From: Alphaproteobacteria bacterium
GTDB lineage: Bacteria > Pseudomonadota > Alphaproteobacteria > CAAHEQ01 > UBA3637
Direction of reading: 5' to 3'
Length of the DNA: 57,611 bases
Assembly: GCA_017647405.1 (NCBI GenBank)
Contig: JAGCKR010000026.1
Span: 1-57,611 of the forward strand
How positions within the stretch are numbered: the stretch's first letter is position 1; each line of letters starts with the position of its first letter. The notes below the pieces were generated by a model that made no database searches, had not been told where the DNA came from, and worked only from the letters and a program-made list of their open reading frames with translations. This document shows, in pieces, positions 38,721 through 45,608 of the stretch. A program made the translations under genes and the position numbers.

Positions 38721-39628
38721 TGCAAAAAATATCAGTTGCAATTGTTGGATGGGGGAATGTTGGACGTGGCTGTAAACGGGCTATTTCTGAATGTTCGGAT
38801 TTGGTTTTGGCCGGTGTTGTTAGACGTGCTTCTTCATTAAAATATGAAGATCCGGATTTGGAAAATACAGTTGTTGTTTCTGATATTACTGAATTAGAAC
38901 ATGTTGATGTCGCCATTTTATGTATTCCATCAAGAGAAGTGCCAGAACGGGTTAAACAATATCATGAGCTTGGCATTTCAACGATTGACAGTTATGATGA
39001 ACACGCTAACATTGCGTCAATAAGAAGAGATTTGGATATTTCTGCAAAATCCAAAAAGGTTGTTTCTATTATTGGTGCCGGTTGGGATCCGGGTACTGAT
39101 TCTGCAATCAGAGCCATTATGAAACTTGTTTCTATCACTGGTCATGGGACAACAACTTTTGGCGGAGAAAATGGTGGTAGAAGTATGGGGCATACCGTTC
39201 AAGTGAAACAAATTGAAGGCGTGAAAGATGCTGTTGCGTTAACTTTGGCCAATGGTCGTGGTAAACAAAAGAGAAAAGTTTATTTAGAGCTTGAAAAAGG
39301 TGCTGATTTAGCTTTGGTTGAAAAAGCAATTCTTGCCGATCCATATTTTAAAAATGATCCAACAGAGGTGATTGAAGTTAAAAATATTAATAAATATAAC
39401 ACATTAAATCATTCTGTTTGTTTAGAAAGAACAGGAATGCAAGTTAACCAAAAATATGAAGCTGAAGGTATAAATCCTGAATTTACGGCAAATATTATGG
39501 TTTCTTGTGTTAGAGCCTGTATGAAAGCTTATACGGATGAGGATTATGGGGCTTATACGTTTATTGAAAGACCTCTGATTGATTATTTGCCGGGGGTCAC
39601 AATTGATGAAAAATTAGAAATTTATTAA
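38720..39628 (+). CDS. ddh: meso-Diaminopimelate D-dehydrogenase
   Basis: This NADPH enzyme reductively aminates tetrahydrodipicolinate to meso-diaminopimelate in one step, a shortcut in lysine and peptidoglycan synthesis. The 302 residues begin with a Rossmann motif (VAIVGWGNVGRGCKRAI). Family signatures IDSYDEHANI, SIIGAGWDPGTDS, GGENGGRSMGHTV and an NHSVCLERTGMQ-type segment follow. Ddh is known mainly from Corynebacterium, some Firmicutes and Bacteroidetes, and is uncommon in Alphaproteobacteria. It is coupled to glgA by a one-base stop/start overlap. The family call is strong; the in vivo direction of the reaction is not visible. Confidence 0.93.
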   Translation: MQKISVAIVGWGNVGRGCKRAISECSDLVLAGVVRRASSLKYEDPDLENTVVVSDITELEHVDVAILCIPSREVPERVKQYHELGISTIDSYDEHANIASIRRDLDISAKSKKVVSIIGAGWDPGTDSAIRAIMKLVSITGHGTTTFGGENGGRSMGHTVQVKQIEGVKDAVALTLANGRGKQKRKVYLELEKGADLALVEKAILADPYFKNDPTEVIEVKNINKYNTLNHSVCLERTGMQVNQKYEAEGINPEFTANIMVSCVRACMKAYTDEDYGAYTFIERPLIDYLPGVTIDEKLEIY

Positions 39629-39644
39629 TAGAAGTCAAATAAGA

Positions 39645-39672
39645 AAAAGCTCTCTTTATGAGGGCTTTTTTT
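39645..39672 (+). terminator. Terminator of glgA-ddh
   Basis: Stem AGCTCTC/GAGGGCT with loop TTTAT, followed by seven T. Confidence 0.85.
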
Positions 39673-39688
39673 ATATAAGAAAAAATGC

Positions 39689-39717
39689 TTGACTTTTAAA
39701 GATTTTTTGTATAAAAT
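39689..39717 (+). promoter_or_regulatory. rpsD promoter
   Basis: TTGACT (39689-39694), 17 bases, TAAAAT (39712-39717). It gives an unusually long leader of about 135 bases. Confidence 0.75.
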
Positions 39718-39724
39718 AACGGCT

Positions 39725-39858
39725 ATTCCCTGAGAATGCGGGTGTTAGCAATAGGTTAGGGCCACGCTTTGGCAATTCGGTCAAAGACTATCGGGGACAA
39801 CAAGGAGTTTTTGTTTTCTTCTTTTACAAAGGCTCTGGCTATAAAAGAAAGGTATACT
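39725..39858 (+). promoter_or_regulatory. Structured 5' leader of rpsD, candidate autoregulatory element
   Basis: The leader contains several hairpins: GCCA/TGGC near 39760-39775, CTTTG/CAAAG flanking it, AACAA/TTGTT near 39798-39815, and TTCTTTTA/TAAAAGAA (39819-39826 with 39842-39849). The last one ends directly against the AAAGG ribosome site of rpsD (39848-39852). S4 represses its own operon through leader RNA in other bacteria, so an S4-binding role is a reasonable guess, but no known element is recognised here. Confidence 0.4.
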
Positions 39859-40473
39859 ATGTCAAAAAGATTAAGTTCTAAATTTAAAATTGATCGTCGT
39901 TTAGGCGTTAACCTCTGGGGTAAAGCAAAAAGCCCTGTTGAAAAAAGAAATTATGGTCCGGGTCAACACGGTGCAAACCGTAAAAAATTAACGGACTACG
40001 GTGTTCAGTTGCACGCTAAACAAAAATTAAAAGGTGTTTACGGCAACGTTTCTGAAAAACAACTTCGTAAATATTATGCTGAAGCTGTTCGTCGTAAAGG
40101 CGATAGCTCTGAAAACTTGGTTGGTATTTTGGAAACACGTTTAGATTCAGTTGTTTATCGTATGAAATTTGTTCCGTCAGTTTTTGCTGCTCGTCAGTTT
40201 GTAAACCACGGTCATGTTCTTGTTAACGGTAAAAAAGTAAACATTCCGTCATACTTGGTTAAACCGGGTGATGAAATCTCCATTCGTTCAAAAGCTAAAG
40301 AAATGGCTTTGGTCATTGATGCTTTGGCTGCAACGGATCGCGAAGTTCCTGAATATATGGAAGTTGATGTAAAAGCCGGATCTGGTAAATTTATCCGTGT
40401 TCCGCAATTGGCTGATATTCCATATGCAACACAAATGGAACCAAATTTGGTTATCGAGTTCTATTCTCGTTAA
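39859..40473 (+). CDS. rpsD: Ribosomal protein S4
   Basis: A 204-residue primary binder of 16S rRNA in the small subunit. It starts [20 protein letters not shown] and carries the family stretch [20 protein letters not shown]. The S4 RNA-binding domain is clear at about 95-160: [48 protein letters not shown]. The ATG at 39859 has AAAGG upstream; an in-frame open stretch reaching back to 39769 lies in the leader and has no homology to S4. Transcribed alone with its own terminator. Confidence 0.98.
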
Positions 40474-40490
40474 TCGATATCAGGTTACGA

Positions 40491-40522
40491 AAAACCGCTC
40501 TATTTTCGGAGCGGTTTTTTTT
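40491..40522 (+). terminator. Terminator after rpsD
   Basis: Stem ACCGCTC/GAGCGGT with an eight-base loop, followed by eight T. Confidence 0.9.
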
Positions 40523-40574
40523 GTATTTATTATGACAATAAAAAAGAAAGATAATTCAAGAGAGTGGTTGCCTG

Positions 40575-40612
40575 AAAAAAATATCCTCTGTGTAAGCAGA
40601 GGATATTTTTTA
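40575..40612 (-). terminator. Terminator of the pilin-like gene (near-perfect hairpin)
   Basis: AATATCCTCTG and CAGAGGATATT pair around TGTAAG, with A and T runs on both sides, so it can work in both directions. It lies 50 bases past the stop of the minus-strand pilin-like gene. Confidence 0.85.
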
Positions 40613-40661
40613 TATTTTCCCAAGAGGAGCAGGGTGATAGTCCTAAAAGATTGAGCCTCTT

Positions 40662-42470
40662 TTATTTTACTACACCATCTGCAGTTCTTTCTGTCACGGC
40701 GCTTGTGCCAACATATACACAGTATGTGTGAACAAGTGCTGTGATTGGTTCAATTATGTCTGTAATCGCAGTATCTTGTTGTGTATAATAGAGGCTAACT
40801 TTCCAATTATCATTAACAGGTTTTTCTGTTGCTTGATGATGATATTCTTTATTAGCCGCGCTGTCATAAGTAATGGATACGCGAGGTAAAATGGGGTACG
40901 TACTTGGGATTTTATCTGCTACGGGTGTTAATAAGCCGTTATCTTGTGCAACAAGATATTTTGAAACAGTATCAGTAATTTCCTGTTCTGTTGTTTGGTG
41001 CCATTGTACCGGAGTAATAACAATCGCAGGTACGTGCTCATTTAAGCAAGAAGGCATCGGAATTGTTCCCGGAACTGTGGCAGAGAATTTATCGTCTTTG
41101 GTTGAAATGGTTATCACTTCTTTGAGTTGATATTTAGGGAGGAGATCGCTTAATTTTGCGCCACCTCGACTTTCAAGACGAATATCTCCCATAACGGAAA
41201 TGTGTCGAGGGTCCACCTTATAGGCTTGAGCTGATCCGGCTTCTGTTGATGATTTTGTAGCTTTTACATTTGTTTCCATTCTACCATTTTTAATGGTTAA
41301 TGTTTCACTTTCACCTGTTTTACCAGACATTGCTTCGCTATTTTTTAAAGTATCACTTCCTCTGGCAATAATTTCACCTTGTCCGTTAATAACGATTGCT
41401 TCTTTCCCGTTGGATGTGTAAACAACGATTTGTCTTTTTTTGTTTTCATCAACGGTTGGTGTTGCTGAGGTTGTTCCTGTTCCCTCAATTAAAACAGAGG
41501 CTGGGCGCTTATCTGTTGTACTTAATGGTTCACTTGCAATAACAATAGATGGCGATTTTGATGGATCAGGTAATGAGCGGAAATGTAATTGATTTTTAAC
41601 AAAAACATTTCCTGAATCATCACCACCATCCGCTGAAACCCAAAATAATGGGTCGCAACTGTTTTCATTTGCATTATAAATTACATCACTAGAAGCTGTT
41701 GTTGTGCCGTCAGAAGTTGTTGAAAGAGAGTTATGGTTTAATTCATAACATCTAGCGGTATCTGAAGAGTTGTTTACTTGTCCGACAGAAAAGTAATTCC
41801 ATGCATGCAAGCGTTTGCTGACAAAACCGTCATCAGGCATTAAAATATTTGATTGATCAAAGTCTTCGTATTTAACAGTAGGAATATAAGTATCAATACC
41901 GGTTGTAGCAATAAAAAGGTGGTCTAATGTGTTATCCACTGTAATGCCGGCATTGGTCAGTGATGTTTTGTCCATTTGCCATGCACCACCGGTTCCGTTA
42001 ATCCTGTCCTTTGATTTTCTTAAAATACCGCCATCAGCTCCAATTAAGGTGGCGATGCGGGCAACTCTTTTTAAACTCAATCCTTCAAGACCAAGGGTAG
42101 CTAAATTAGGTATAATAAACCCTTGTAGGGTGCTACTACCTTGGCTTGTTGCATTTTTAAGTATCACAAAGTTATATCCGCCCATGCTGGTTTCAAAACC
42201 GGCAGGTAAATAAGATTGTATGGCTGTTGTATCTGGTGAGCATTTATTTTGCTCATTACAAGAAATATCCGCATGATAGTTCATAATATAAGAGGAAAAA
42301 GCCTCTTTCATAATGCGTATTTCAGAGGCAATATTGATATTTTCAACCTCTTCATTTCGGCTTGAAACTTGTTTAAAAAGAAGTGGTCCCATAACTCCCA
42401 GTAAGGCGACGACTGCAATAACCTCAATAAGAACGGAGCCTTTTTCTTGATTTTTAAATTGTTTATTCAT
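40662..42470 (-). CDS. Large type IV pilin-like (PilV/shufflon-type) surface protein
   Basis: A 602-residue protein with a class III signal at its N-terminus: a short basic leader, KG followed by SVLIEVIAVVALLGVMGPLL, with Glu at +5 of the mature form. Prepilin peptidase cleavage after Gly12 and assembly as a minor or tip pilin are therefore expected. The long ectodomain has a helical stalk (VENINIASEIRIMKEAFSSYIM), then Ser/Thr/Asn/Asp-rich beta-type sequence and a C-terminal module with two or three Cys (SCLNEHVPAIVITP). The plan is that of PilV adhesins of thin pili. AAGGAGG precedes the start; the LamG gene lies 18 bases upstream in the same operon. No pilus assembly genes are in the window. 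Confidence 0.7.
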   Translation of the reverse strand: MNKQFKNQEKGSVLIEVIAVVALLGVMGPLLFKQVSSRNEEVENINIASEIRIMKEAFSSYIMNYHADISCNEQNKCSPDTTAIQSYLPAGFETSMGGYNFVILKNATSQGSSTLQGFIIPNLATLGLEGLSLKRVARIATLIGADGGILRKSKDRINGTGGAWQMDKTSLTNAGITVDNTLDHLFIATTGIDTYIPTVKYEDFDQSNILMPDDGFVSKRLHAWNYFSVGQVNNSSDTARCYELNHNSLSTTSDGTTTASSDVIYNANENSCDPLFWVSADGGDDSGNVFVKNQLHFRSLPDPSKSPSIVIASEPLSTTDKRPASVLIEGTGTTSATPTVDENKKRQIVVYTSNGKEAIVINGQGEIIARGSDTLKNSEAMSGKTGESETLTIKNGRMETNVKATKSSTEAGSAQAYKVDPRHISVMGDIRLESRGGAKLSDLLPKYQLKEVITISTKDDKFSATVPGTIPMPSCLNEHVPAIVITPVQWHQTTEQEITDTVSKYLVAQDNGLLTPVADKIPSTYPILPRVSITYDSAANKEYHHQATEKPVNDNWKVSLYYTQQDTAITDIIEPITALVHTYCVYVGTSAVTERTADGVVK

Positions 42471-42488
42471 AAGCGCCTCCTTGTTATT

Positions 42489-43961
42489 TTAAAATTTATA
42501 TCGTTTTTTTTCTGTTTTTAAATTATGTCTGATTTCGTCTTGGTTTAAAACGCGATTATATATTTTTATATTATACATATCAGCATTTATTTTATTTCCA
42601 CCCATATCTCTAGGGGATTCTGAAATCATCAGTGTTGTCGCATTAAGTGGTGGTAAAAACTCATTACCGGGAAATGTTTTTGTTGCAGCAAGATTTCCAT
42701 TAATAAAGAGGTGGTGGAATTTTGGTCCAAGTACATAAGAAATAGCTGTGATGGAGTGGGGAATTGTTGCTTTTAATTCACTTAATTCGATGTTGCCTTC
42801 TTTATATATGGTTATGGTTAAATCTCCGGATTTGTATTTTGCAATAATATAAGGGAAAGATCCATTATTCGTTGAAAATAAGGGTGATTGAGTATCAATA
42901 ATGGATTCATAAACATCAAATTGGGCAACAAAAGATAAGGTAAATTCATTGGTGATTTTTGTTGATCCTTCAATGGGTATTTGTAATGAAACATCCTTCA
43001 TCATTGCCAAAGGCATTTCGTTGTTTGGATTCCATTTTGCATTGCCAATGCCTCCGAAAATAGTTGTTGGTTGTTGACTAATAATATTTAACCATTCCGT
43101 TTTTGTTTCTTTATGAAGCGGTGCACCATTTTCTGCTTGAGCATTCATGGTTGCATCAAAGTGATAAATTAACCCGTCTGTAACATAGGGAGAATTAACC
43201 GGCGTGATGCAAAAAATTGGTTGATAATCATAGGTGTTTTCTCCTGGAAAATAATTATTATCTTCAAAAACTTTATATAAATTATAAGGAATTTTTCTTT
43301 TTTTACCATTTGCTGAGAAAATATATGGTAAATTTTCTTCTATTCCTACAAAACCGCAATCAGGATCGCCTTTTGTTCTTTTTGCTAATGCTTTTTCCCA
43401 TAGGATATGGTTTCGATAGGTGTCACTACTTTCGGAAGTGTCTATCCTGCTTTTAAAAAGATTGTGTTGAATGCCGATTCTAGGGAATAACGCCCCATAG
43501 GTTAAAACATATTTAAAAGTTTGAGCTTGAGTTTGACAAGAAACAACATCGCCATAAACATATGTTTCGCTGGCACCTGTTGAAACTTTTTTATCAAGAC
43601 CATCCATGCAAACAATGGCGGATGTGTAAGATCCATCTGTCGGAAAGGTATTTCTTGAAACATCATCAGGCATAATTTCAGGCATATATCCGATATTGAT
43701 ATCATCAAATTCATCTTTAAAAATATGAATATATTGTGCTTTACCACTAGGTTTATCTTTGCCGACACTTGGATTGATATAGGGTAGAGTAAATGAAATT
43801 TGATCAGCATAATCTCTGGCAAATTGATGTTGGGCAACAAAACTGGCCACATAAGATTCTGAAATAGGCACTTCCTCAACGTTAATTCGATCCGAACGTG
43901 GGAATAACATTGCAGTCATTAATCCAATCAAGAATGTTAAAACTGTTGTCCAAAATATCAT
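42489..43961 (-). CDS. Membrane-anchored protein with C-terminal LamG/concanavalin-like lectin domain
   Basis: A 490-residue protein. A single N-terminal hydrophobic segment (about 2-20, MIFWTTVLTFLIGLMTAMLF) acts as anchor or uncleaved signal and lacks the prepilin G-x4-E site. The ectodomain (about 25-260) contains several Cys and is not recognised. Residues about 270-485 fit a LamG-type jelly roll: DGLIYHFDATMNAQ, then TEWLNI, FTLSFVAQFDVY, HHLFINGNLAATKTF, and the usual ending DMYNIKIYNRVLNQDEIRHN. Such domains bind glycans or proteins. It is first in an operon with the pilin-like gene, which suggests a joint surface or adhesive structure. Confidence 0.68.
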   Translation of the reverse strand: MIFWTTVLTFLIGLMTAMLFPRSDRINVEEVPISESYVASFVAQHQFARDYADQISFTLPYINPSVGKDKPSGKAQYIHIFKDEFDDINIGYMPEIMPDDVSRNTFPTDGSYTSAIVCMDGLDKKVSTGASETYVYGDVVSCQTQAQTFKYVLTYGALFPRIGIQHNLFKSRIDTSESSDTYRNHILWEKALAKRTKGDPDCGFVGIEENLPYIFSANGKKRKIPYNLYKVFEDNNYFPGENTYDYQPIFCITPVNSPYVTDGLIYHFDATMNAQAENGAPLHKETKTEWLNIISQQPTTIFGGIGNAKWNPNNEMPLAMMKDVSLQIPIEGSTKITNEFTLSFVAQFDVYESIIDTQSPLFSTNNGSFPYIIAKYKSGDLTITIYKEGNIELSELKATIPHSITAISYVLGPKFHHLFINGNLAATKTFPGNEFLPPLNATTLMISESPRDMGGNKINADMYNIKIYNRVLNQDEIRHNLKTEKKRYKF

Positions 43962-43998
43962 TTAAGCCCCCGAAATCTTTTATATCCCTTATCTTTAT

Positions 43999-44027
43999 AT
44001 TATAACAAAAATTTTTTGTTTGGTAAA
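43999..44027 (-). promoter_or_regulatory. Possible promoter of the LamG/pilin operon
   Basis: Minus strand TTTACC (44022-44027), 17 bases, TATAAT (43999-44004). The -10 is perfect, the -35 weak. The remainder of the gap to 44149 is AT-rich with no other feature. Confidence 0.5.
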
Positions 44028-44149
44028 TGTTTTTTTGTCAAAAAGTATATTTTTTGACTCTTTTTTTTGAAAAATAAGAGAATAGATTGTTTGAATATTT
44101 ACTTGCGAATAAAAATGATACATAAAGTTATTCGAAGTCGTCATCAAAT

Positions 44150-44557
44150 TTATTTAAAAATCGGTAGGTTATTTAATTTTTTTAAAGCGTCAATAAAAGG
44201 TTTATCTGCAGGGCAGAATTCATAATCATCTATCTCTGATAAGGATATCCATTTGGCATCATTATGCTCATATAAAGCGGGTAGATGTTCTGTTGTGCAA
44301 CTACCCCAAAAGGCATGGAGATGAAAATCACCTTTTTCCGGATAAGTATGAATATGACTCATGAAAAGATCATGAACTTTTATTTCTTTTTCCATTTCTT
44401 CTTTGAATTCGCGGATGACGCATTCTTGAAGAGTTTCTCCTTTTTCAAGTTTTCCACCGGGAAATTCCCATAAAAGTTCTGGAAATTTTCCTTTTTTGCG
44501 TTGTGCAATTAAAATTTTATTATTATAGATAACGATGGCCATTGAAATTTCAATCAT
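44150..44557 (-). CDS. mutT: MutT-type Nudix hydrolase (8-oxo-dGTP diphosphatase)
   Basis: A 135-residue Nudix protein: strand SMAIVIYNNKILIAQRKKG, then the Nudix box at about 34-56 (GGKLEKGETLQECVIREFKE) preceded by WEFPGGK as in MutT. A C-terminal WISLSEIDDYEFCPADKPF segment is also typical of MutT. It probably removes 8-oxo-dGTP from the nucleotide pool. It follows the unknown gene 44571-45545 by 13 bases on the same strand, so the two share a transcript. Substrate is by similarity only; related Nudix enzymes cannot be excluded. Confidence 0.85.
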   Translation of the reverse strand: MIEISMAIVIYNNKILIAQRKKGKFPELLWEFPGGKLEKGETLQECVIREFKEEMEKEIKVHDLFMSHIHTYPEKGDFHLHAFWGSCTTEHLPALYEHNDAKWISLSEIDDYEFCPADKPFIDALKKLNNLPIFK

Positions 44558-44570
44558 AAAAAATCCTTTG

Positions 44571-45545
44571 TTAAGCTGTTTTATCCAATCCGGTTCGCAA
44601 CAGATATAAGTTTGGATCTGAAGGACGAGAAGAATGTTTCACCGGAATTTGATCGTTTTCTGCTTTGGAAAATTCAGGCGCAACATTCTGTCTATATACC
44701 ACATTTAATGCTGAGCAAACGGCATTTGTTTTTTCATTAAAGAGGCGATGTTTTTTTATTTCGCTCAACATCCCATCTAACTCATTTCTTGTCATCAAGA
44801 AATGGCCAAGATTTGAAAGGCGTTCAAACGTAATTTTTTTACCAAATTCGATTTTATAAAAAATATTGTTCTTTTTTAAAATTAATTTTTTCCCTTTTGT
44901 TAAAACAGGAGGAATAGGGAAGTTATTGCTAACAATATCCAGTTGTTTTGAACCTAGATTAAAACAGTCTTTTAAGGCAAAATAGCGATAAATATCTGAA
45001 AAATGTGGATATATTTTTTTTGTTGAAGGTTTTTTTAGTTTAGATGCAGTTGTTTTTGAATAAATTTTTCCTAATTTTTCTAAAGTTTTTTCTGCTGTTT
45101 GAGGATCATTTTTTAACCAAGTTGAAATCATCTCTTTTGCTTTTGAAAATGACATTAAGTTAATTTTATTGTTTTTCAAGTTGATTTCTTGAAAGCCTGG
45201 ATTAGATTCATCCAAAGATAAGCGAAATAGGGTTGGTCCTTCTTTTGAAAACAAAACCCCATCATTTCCAAGTAGTGGTGGAATATTAAAATCAGCGGCA
45301 TAAGGATTTTTCTTTCCAAAGTTTTCGGTTTGATTTTTAAATTGATAATCCATTAAATAAACGGATGAAATTAGATCATAGTCAACGCGATTGTTTTCTT
45401 TTCCAAAGAAGTACGAACGGTTATCCGATTGAATTGCATTATGCAAAAAAGCTGTGTTTGGAATTTTATTTTCATCAATGATAAGAGGATGATCAGGTTG
45501 ATCCTCTTTAATAAATTTATTCAAAACCATTTCAATATTTGCCAT
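44571..45545 (-). CDS. Protein of unknown function upstream of mutT
   Basis: A 324-residue soluble protein without signal peptide or membrane helix; I recognise no family. It has a high content of Lys, Asn, Phe and Leu. The first half (about 15-125) has DHPLIIDENKIPNTAFLHNAI and aromatic stretches, the middle is a Lys-rich linker (SKLKKPSTKKIYPHFSD), and the C-terminal part ends in a polar tail. There are no obvious catalytic motifs. A good promoter and a long uninterrupted frame support it as a real gene. It may be lineage-restricted or a secreted or injected protein of unknown kind; that is speculation. Confidence 0.6.
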   Translation of the reverse strand: MANIEMVLNKFIKEDQPDHPLIIDENKIPNTAFLHNAIQSDNRSYFFGKENNRVDYDLISSVYLMDYQFKNQTENFGKKNPYAADFNIPPLLGNDGVLFSKEGPTLFRLSLDESNPGFQEINLKNNKINLMSFSKAKEMISTWLKNDPQTAEKTLEKLGKIYSKTTASKLKKPSTKKIYPHFSDIYRYFALKDCFNLGSKQLDIVSNNFPIPPVLTKGKKLILKKNNIFYKIEFGKKITFERLSNLGHFLMTRNELDGMLSEIKKHRLFNEKTNAVCSALNVVYRQNVAPEFSKAENDQIPVKHSSRPSDPNLYLLRTGLDKTA

Positions 45546-45579
45546 TTGAGTCTCCGTTTTTTTTTTGATGATTATTTGT

Positions 45580-45608
45580 AAGATAGCAGATTAAATTTAT
45601 TTAGGCAA
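45580..45608 (-). promoter_or_regulatory. Promoter of the unknown gene-mutT operon
   Basis: Minus strand TTGCCT (45603-45608), 17 bases, TATCTT (45580-45585). A GACTC/GAGTC (GANTC) site at 45550 lies in the leader next to the start codon. Confidence 0.6.

Follow-up and report, generated by a model that had tools for sequence, protein, structure and literature searches.

Conjugative plasmids and a few pathogens are the best-known carriers of R64-type pili, and in them the long minor pilin PilV selects the partner cell. PilV binds the LPS of recipient cells (PMC5297154), and transfer in the mouse gut depends on it (PMC9045228). The R64-type IVb pilus is marked by the PilO2 domain PF06864 (PMC3984277). 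The tip pilin gene may be accompanied by a gene for an anchored protein, as in PilM2-PilV2 of PAPI-1 and of the Burkholderia Tfp7 (PMC3984277, PMC5297154); pilV and pilM are also neighbours in the plasmids pSA20053897.1 and Cronobacter unnamed3. Plasmids with pilV beside pilM also have a second T2SS/T4P-type ATPase next to pilV. In the CofB-CofJ and TcpB-TcpF systems, the tip minor pilin (CofB, TcpB) is bound by a second protein (CofJ, TcpF), which is needed for colonisation (PMC9565799). Streptococcus sanguinis has a ConA-like lectin domain in the tip complex of a type IV pilus; it is carried by PilC, which pairs with PilA (PMC9934059).

The window analysed here is a stretch of 57,611 nucleotides (contig JAGCKR010000026.1) from the genome of a gut alphaproteobacterium (1.61 Mb, 68 contigs, 90% complete). 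It contains a pair of genes which looks like an R64-type tip subunit (P0001) and a lectin-fold partner (P0002), with the machinery elsewhere in the genome. The features of the pair are listed in Table 1. The original prediction had described a 602-residue protein with a type IV prepilin N-terminus, encoded 18 bases after an anchored protein of 490 residues with a lectin-like domain, and the ORF coordinates and domain searches bear out this description. The two genes are evidently not chance ORFs, because homologues were found in 44 (prepilin) and 34 (partner) of the 96 genomes searched. Upstream of the unit is a mutT-like gene, and downstream of it rpsD. A TAA stop codon abuts the ATG of P0002 on its 5' side, and a candidate extended -10 promoter (a consensus match only) is located 37 nt 5' of this ATG. 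No shufflon-type repeats were found in 39600-45600, where the short repeats look like chance, and no recombinase was recognised by eye among the ORFs flanking the pair.

Table 1. Positions of the gene pair and its predicted features in the window.
Feature	Position	Strand	Basis or remark
PilV-like minor prepilin gene (P0001)	40662..42470	-	ORF, 602 aa
Anchored partner gene (P0002)	42489..43961	-	ORF, 490 aa; first gene of the pair
Class III leader peptide MNKQFKNQEKG	42438..42470	-	sequence; predicted cut after Gly11; mature Glu5 = E16
P0001 pilin domain, residues 1-195	41886..42470	-	homology to the PilV constant region (hhalign)
P0001 C-terminal head domain, residues 410-602	40665..41243	-	family alignment
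P0002 hydrophobic anchor, residues 2-20	43902..43958	-	no leader peptide
P0002 LamG/ConA-like domain, residues 332-477	42531..42968	-	PF13385, E 2.8e-7
AAGGAGG ribosome-binding site of the PilV-like gene	42476..42482	-	sequence; within the 18-nt gap
Candidate promoter of the pair, TTTACC-17-TATAAT with TG extension	43999..44027	-	consensus scan only
Candidate terminator, perfect hairpin of 15 bp between the 3' end of the pair and rpsD	40576..40611	.	

P0001 starts with the class III prepilin signal MNKQFKNQEKG/SVLIEV, which has Gly11 and a Glu at mature position 5. Among 26 aligned homologues, E16 never varies, and the conservation of G11 is at least 90%. The PilV of the R64/ColIb-P9/TP114-type conjugative pili (PF04917) is likewise a class III prepilin and a long minor pilin. 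The profile of 35 P0001 homologues (first 230 residues) was compared by hhalign with that of PilV from ColIb-P9 and eight other plasmids, which gave a probability of 99.0 (E 4e-18) over 212 columns. The probability was still 97.2 (E 4.5e-11) after the pilin helix had been removed; the controls for this helix-less comparison (20 column shuffles and one reversed profile) all gave E values of at least 0.063, with the best at 0.063. Comparison of the full-length profiles showed that the match is confined to the first ~195 residues. The remainder of P0001 is a different head of ~400 residues with the family-conserved motifs 'DPaYtSVMnDIrLxSRGGArLSxiLPnY' and then 'CPxgYxxAIxVTP', and no PilV counterpart of this C-terminal head was found over the whole length of the profiles. 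The head has no detectable homologue that would point to a receptor.

P0001 is below every Pfam and NCBIfam cut-off for PilV, and has no match to Shufflon_N (PF04917) at E≤1; it was filed as PilV-like and not as a Shufflon_N member. Sequence searches of the PDB gave no useful relative of P0001. Its AlphaFold model, made from a two-sequence alignment, was poor (mean pLDDT 34), and a Foldseek search with this low-confidence model found nothing. The locus of P0001 differs from that of the R64-type PilV: it lacks a shufflon or recombinase, has an unrelated head, misses the Pfam model and is apart from the pilus operon; moreover, tblastn of P0001 and P0002 returned no plasmid record with a match to either.

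The pilus machinery is encoded elsewhere in the genome, which carries the genes of an R64/TCP-type IVb pilus. The pilus assembly genes sought outside the window are located on contig C13 (L080), in the order: a 344-aa protein, a TcpQ/PilL-like protein (TcpQ, E 5.7e-17), the secretin PilN (Secretin, 3.8e-9), PilO, a PilP-like protein, the PilQ ATPase (T2SSE, 1.4e-69), and PilR (T2SSF, 1.1e-23). The PilO gene matches PF06864, which is typical of the R64-type IVb pilus, with an E value of 9e-31; the PilP-like gene matches TIGR03021 (3e-7) slightly under the cut-off. A PilS-type major pilin is found on C66 (PF08805, 2e-10, over the cut-off). The original prediction had depended on a prepilin peptidase in the genome, and a single one is present on C12 (PF01478, 5.2e-12, over the cut-off). 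The pair was also said to be not near pilus assembly genes; this holds within the window, whereas in the relative G016 a truncated PilV-like homologue lies ~0.7 kb from pilR. The idea of a compact, possibly undescribed adhesion system is partly retained: a tip pilin with a partner fits, but the system is not self-contained, with its R64-type operon elsewhere in the genome.

P0001 is best read as probably a PilV-type subunit of the R64-type IVb pilus encoded by the operon on C13. The pair as a whole probably serves this chromosomal pilus, P0001 as its PilV-type tip minor pilin and P0002 as a dedicated partner anchored in the membrane; a probability of about 0.68 is given to this reading.

Two other features were observed in the pilus genes of this genome and its genus. 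A PilT-like ATPase is encoded on C35 (L082 7907-9178), apart from the pilus operon, with a TIGR01420 match (1.5e-35) below the NCBIfam cut-off. Prepilin genes with the near-identical N-terminus SGRSMVEMLGVLAIIGVLSVGGIAGY are massively multiplied in the genus: at least 80 matches were found in each of G001 and G004, 78 in G006 and 49 in G008, and only 9 in the genome of the window. For example, such genes are located on G001:C11 and G001:C12 (L148, L149 10564-19901), and on C67 (L138 7063-8095) and C66 (L139) of the genome of the window. The same N-terminus also starts very long open frames, one of which has 3860 aa in G001.

P0002 has a single hydrophobic segment at its N-terminus, and the MxFW...P start is conserved across its family. 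It contains exactly four cysteines, all nearly invariant among family members, which is what an exported domain with disulfide bonds would be expected to show. A periplasmic location of the bulk of P0002 may be assumed, whereas the charged residues R22 and R25 after the anchor disfavour a periplasmic C-terminus by the positive-inside rule. The Laminin_G_3 domain scored 31.2 bits against a cut-off of 27.6. The AlphaFold model from a two-sequence alignment was poor (mean pLDDT 36); a Foldseek search of the PDB with this low-confidence model retrieved only ConA-like, LamG and galectin folds. The LamG part of the family profile also touches a bacterial sialidase domain (E 0.0017). These matches support a fold, not a ligand. 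The partner family ranges from 217 to ~570 aa or slightly above, and its common part is the N-terminal anchor with a 'QHQAA..Y' helix. The LamG domain is not a fixed part of the gene pair: Pfam recognises it in only 11 of the 31 partners. One partner had a weak match to TafC (NF052521), which was not recovered when ten members were scanned singly.

The LamG/ConA-like domain of P0002 and the strict pairing with a PilV-like gene would also suit a two-part tip adhesin, in which the P0001 head would take P0002 along to the tip of the pilus and the LamG domain would be the glycan-binding part. Since TcpF and CofJ (PMC9565799), as well as PilC with its ConA-like lectin module (PMC9934059), are precedents, this idea of the original prediction stays alive as a rival; however, it is considered unlikely. 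CofJ and TcpF are secreted proteins whose signal sequences are cleaved off, whereas the N-terminus of P0002 is hydrophobic and uncleaved, and is not a prepilin leader or a typical signal peptide. The lectin module of PilC is fused to a true pilin of a Gram-positive pilus, unlike that of P0002. The scarcity of recognised LamG domains among the partners also counts against it, and several partners of 217-291 aa have no room for such a domain after the middle domain.

The pairing of the partner and the PilV-like gene is real. Co-occurrence and synteny in relatives had been set beforehand as a test, and the two genes are adjacent in 31 of the 33 relatives holding both, with the two exceptions (G010 and G021) in one genus. 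At the ORF level, the partner is directly upstream of the PilV-like gene in 28 of 30 loci, and the two ORFs overlap in several genomes. In the family f74, the partner comes after the PilV-like gene and not before it, and in G115 it is on the opposite strand. In the same genus as the window, the 92% complete G003 encodes the ATPase and the platform protein but yields no PilV-like match, which counts against the preferred reading; the relatives' assemblies vary in completeness, and absences such as those in G003 and G006 are weak evidence.

The P0002 gene adjoins a PilV-like gene as pilM adjoins pilV, which raises the possibility that P0002 is a PilM that has diverged strongly and that carries a LamG extension in some lineages. 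The adjacency of pilV and pilM in PAPI-1, in Burkholderia (PMC3984277) and in the two plasmids points in this direction, as does the similar build with a short uncleaved N-terminal helix. This reading is nevertheless doubtful: the profile-profile probability between P0002 and PilM was 0.5-0.6, whereas an enterobacterial PilM profile finds two divergent PilMs at 96-98, and PF07419 had no match over the cut-off in the 96 genomes. Moreover, PilM2 is small, whereas P0002 has 490 aa, four conserved cysteines and a LamG-fold domain. The identity of P0002 with PilM was examined in four ways, and no homology was detectable.

A class-wide sample of 385 genomes was also searched. The PilV-like profile was found in 31 genomes and PilO (PF06864) in 29, of which 21 were common to both (~2 expected; Fisher p 7e-21, treating as independent genomes that are not). 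This overlap spans many families (f1, f22, f32, f39, f48, f51, f70 and f74). Sixteen genomes matched the N-terminal part of the partner, and each of these also had the PilV-like match (p 4e-20, with the same treatment of genomes); five more matched the generic LamG part of the partner only. An independent surface system of lectin and pseudopilin, which would borrow only the prepilin peptidase and work without a pilus, agrees with the unlinked pair in this genome and with the ten PilV-like genomes of the class lacking a PilO match, but is very improbable given the 21 shared genomes, the homology of P0001 to PilV, and the G016 homologue so near to pilR; some of the ten are incomplete assemblies, and G010 also lacks the platform gene.

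In the preferred reading, a PilV-type tip pilin with its anchored partner, P0001 would be cut after Gly11 by the stand-alone prepilin peptidase. It may then start or cap the filament of the PilS-type major pilin, which would be driven by PilQ/PilR and exit through the PilN secretin; these filament parts are encoded in the same genome, and the tip position of P0001 is suggested by that of PilV. The head of ~400 residues, which occupies the position of PilV's shufflon-variable end, might contact other bacteria or host mucus. The uncleaved N-terminal helix of P0002 would hold this protein in the inner membrane, and P0002 might load or stabilise P0001 before export in PilM's place. Its LamG-fold domain might bind either the P0001 head or a glycan. 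Most simply, P0002 would act in the PilM position as a factor for assembly or loading, the role best supported here.

The R64-type set is fixed across a whole family of small-genome alphaproteobacteria, whose closest named relative comes from sheep rectum. The unlinked, shufflon-less tip protein and the new partner family suggest that the pilus was recruited for something besides or instead of DNA transfer. It is conceivable, at rather long odds, that the partner family (with its MxFW anchor, a middle domain with four Cys and sometimes a LamG domain) is a new dedicated tip-pilin partner replacing PilM in R64-type pili and in some lineages bringing a lectin to the tip, and that commensal gut alphaproteobacteria thus turn a plasmid-type mating pilus into a colonisation organ that binds glycans. 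The family now has names and coordinates, whereas Pfam and NCBIfam identify none of it in these genomes.

Several other observations were made at the loci of relatives. The pilus operon of G016 adjoins a VirB4-like gene (TIGR00929, 1.8e-12; L083 1-1612, G016:C19), and likely VirB2/VirB3-like ORFs were seen nearby by eye; these neighbours recall the conjugative setting of R64-type pili. In G063, from another family, there are 13 matches to the PilV-like protein (e.g. L085 6103-8067 and 14413-15984), with no adjacent partner gene at the two loci read and no match to the partner profile in this genome. In several genera, a likely sua5/ywlC gene (tRNA threonylcarbamoyl-AMP synthase; by eye) follows the PilV-like gene, including G013 (L098), G016 (L083), G025 (L156), G080 (L087) and G207 (L150).
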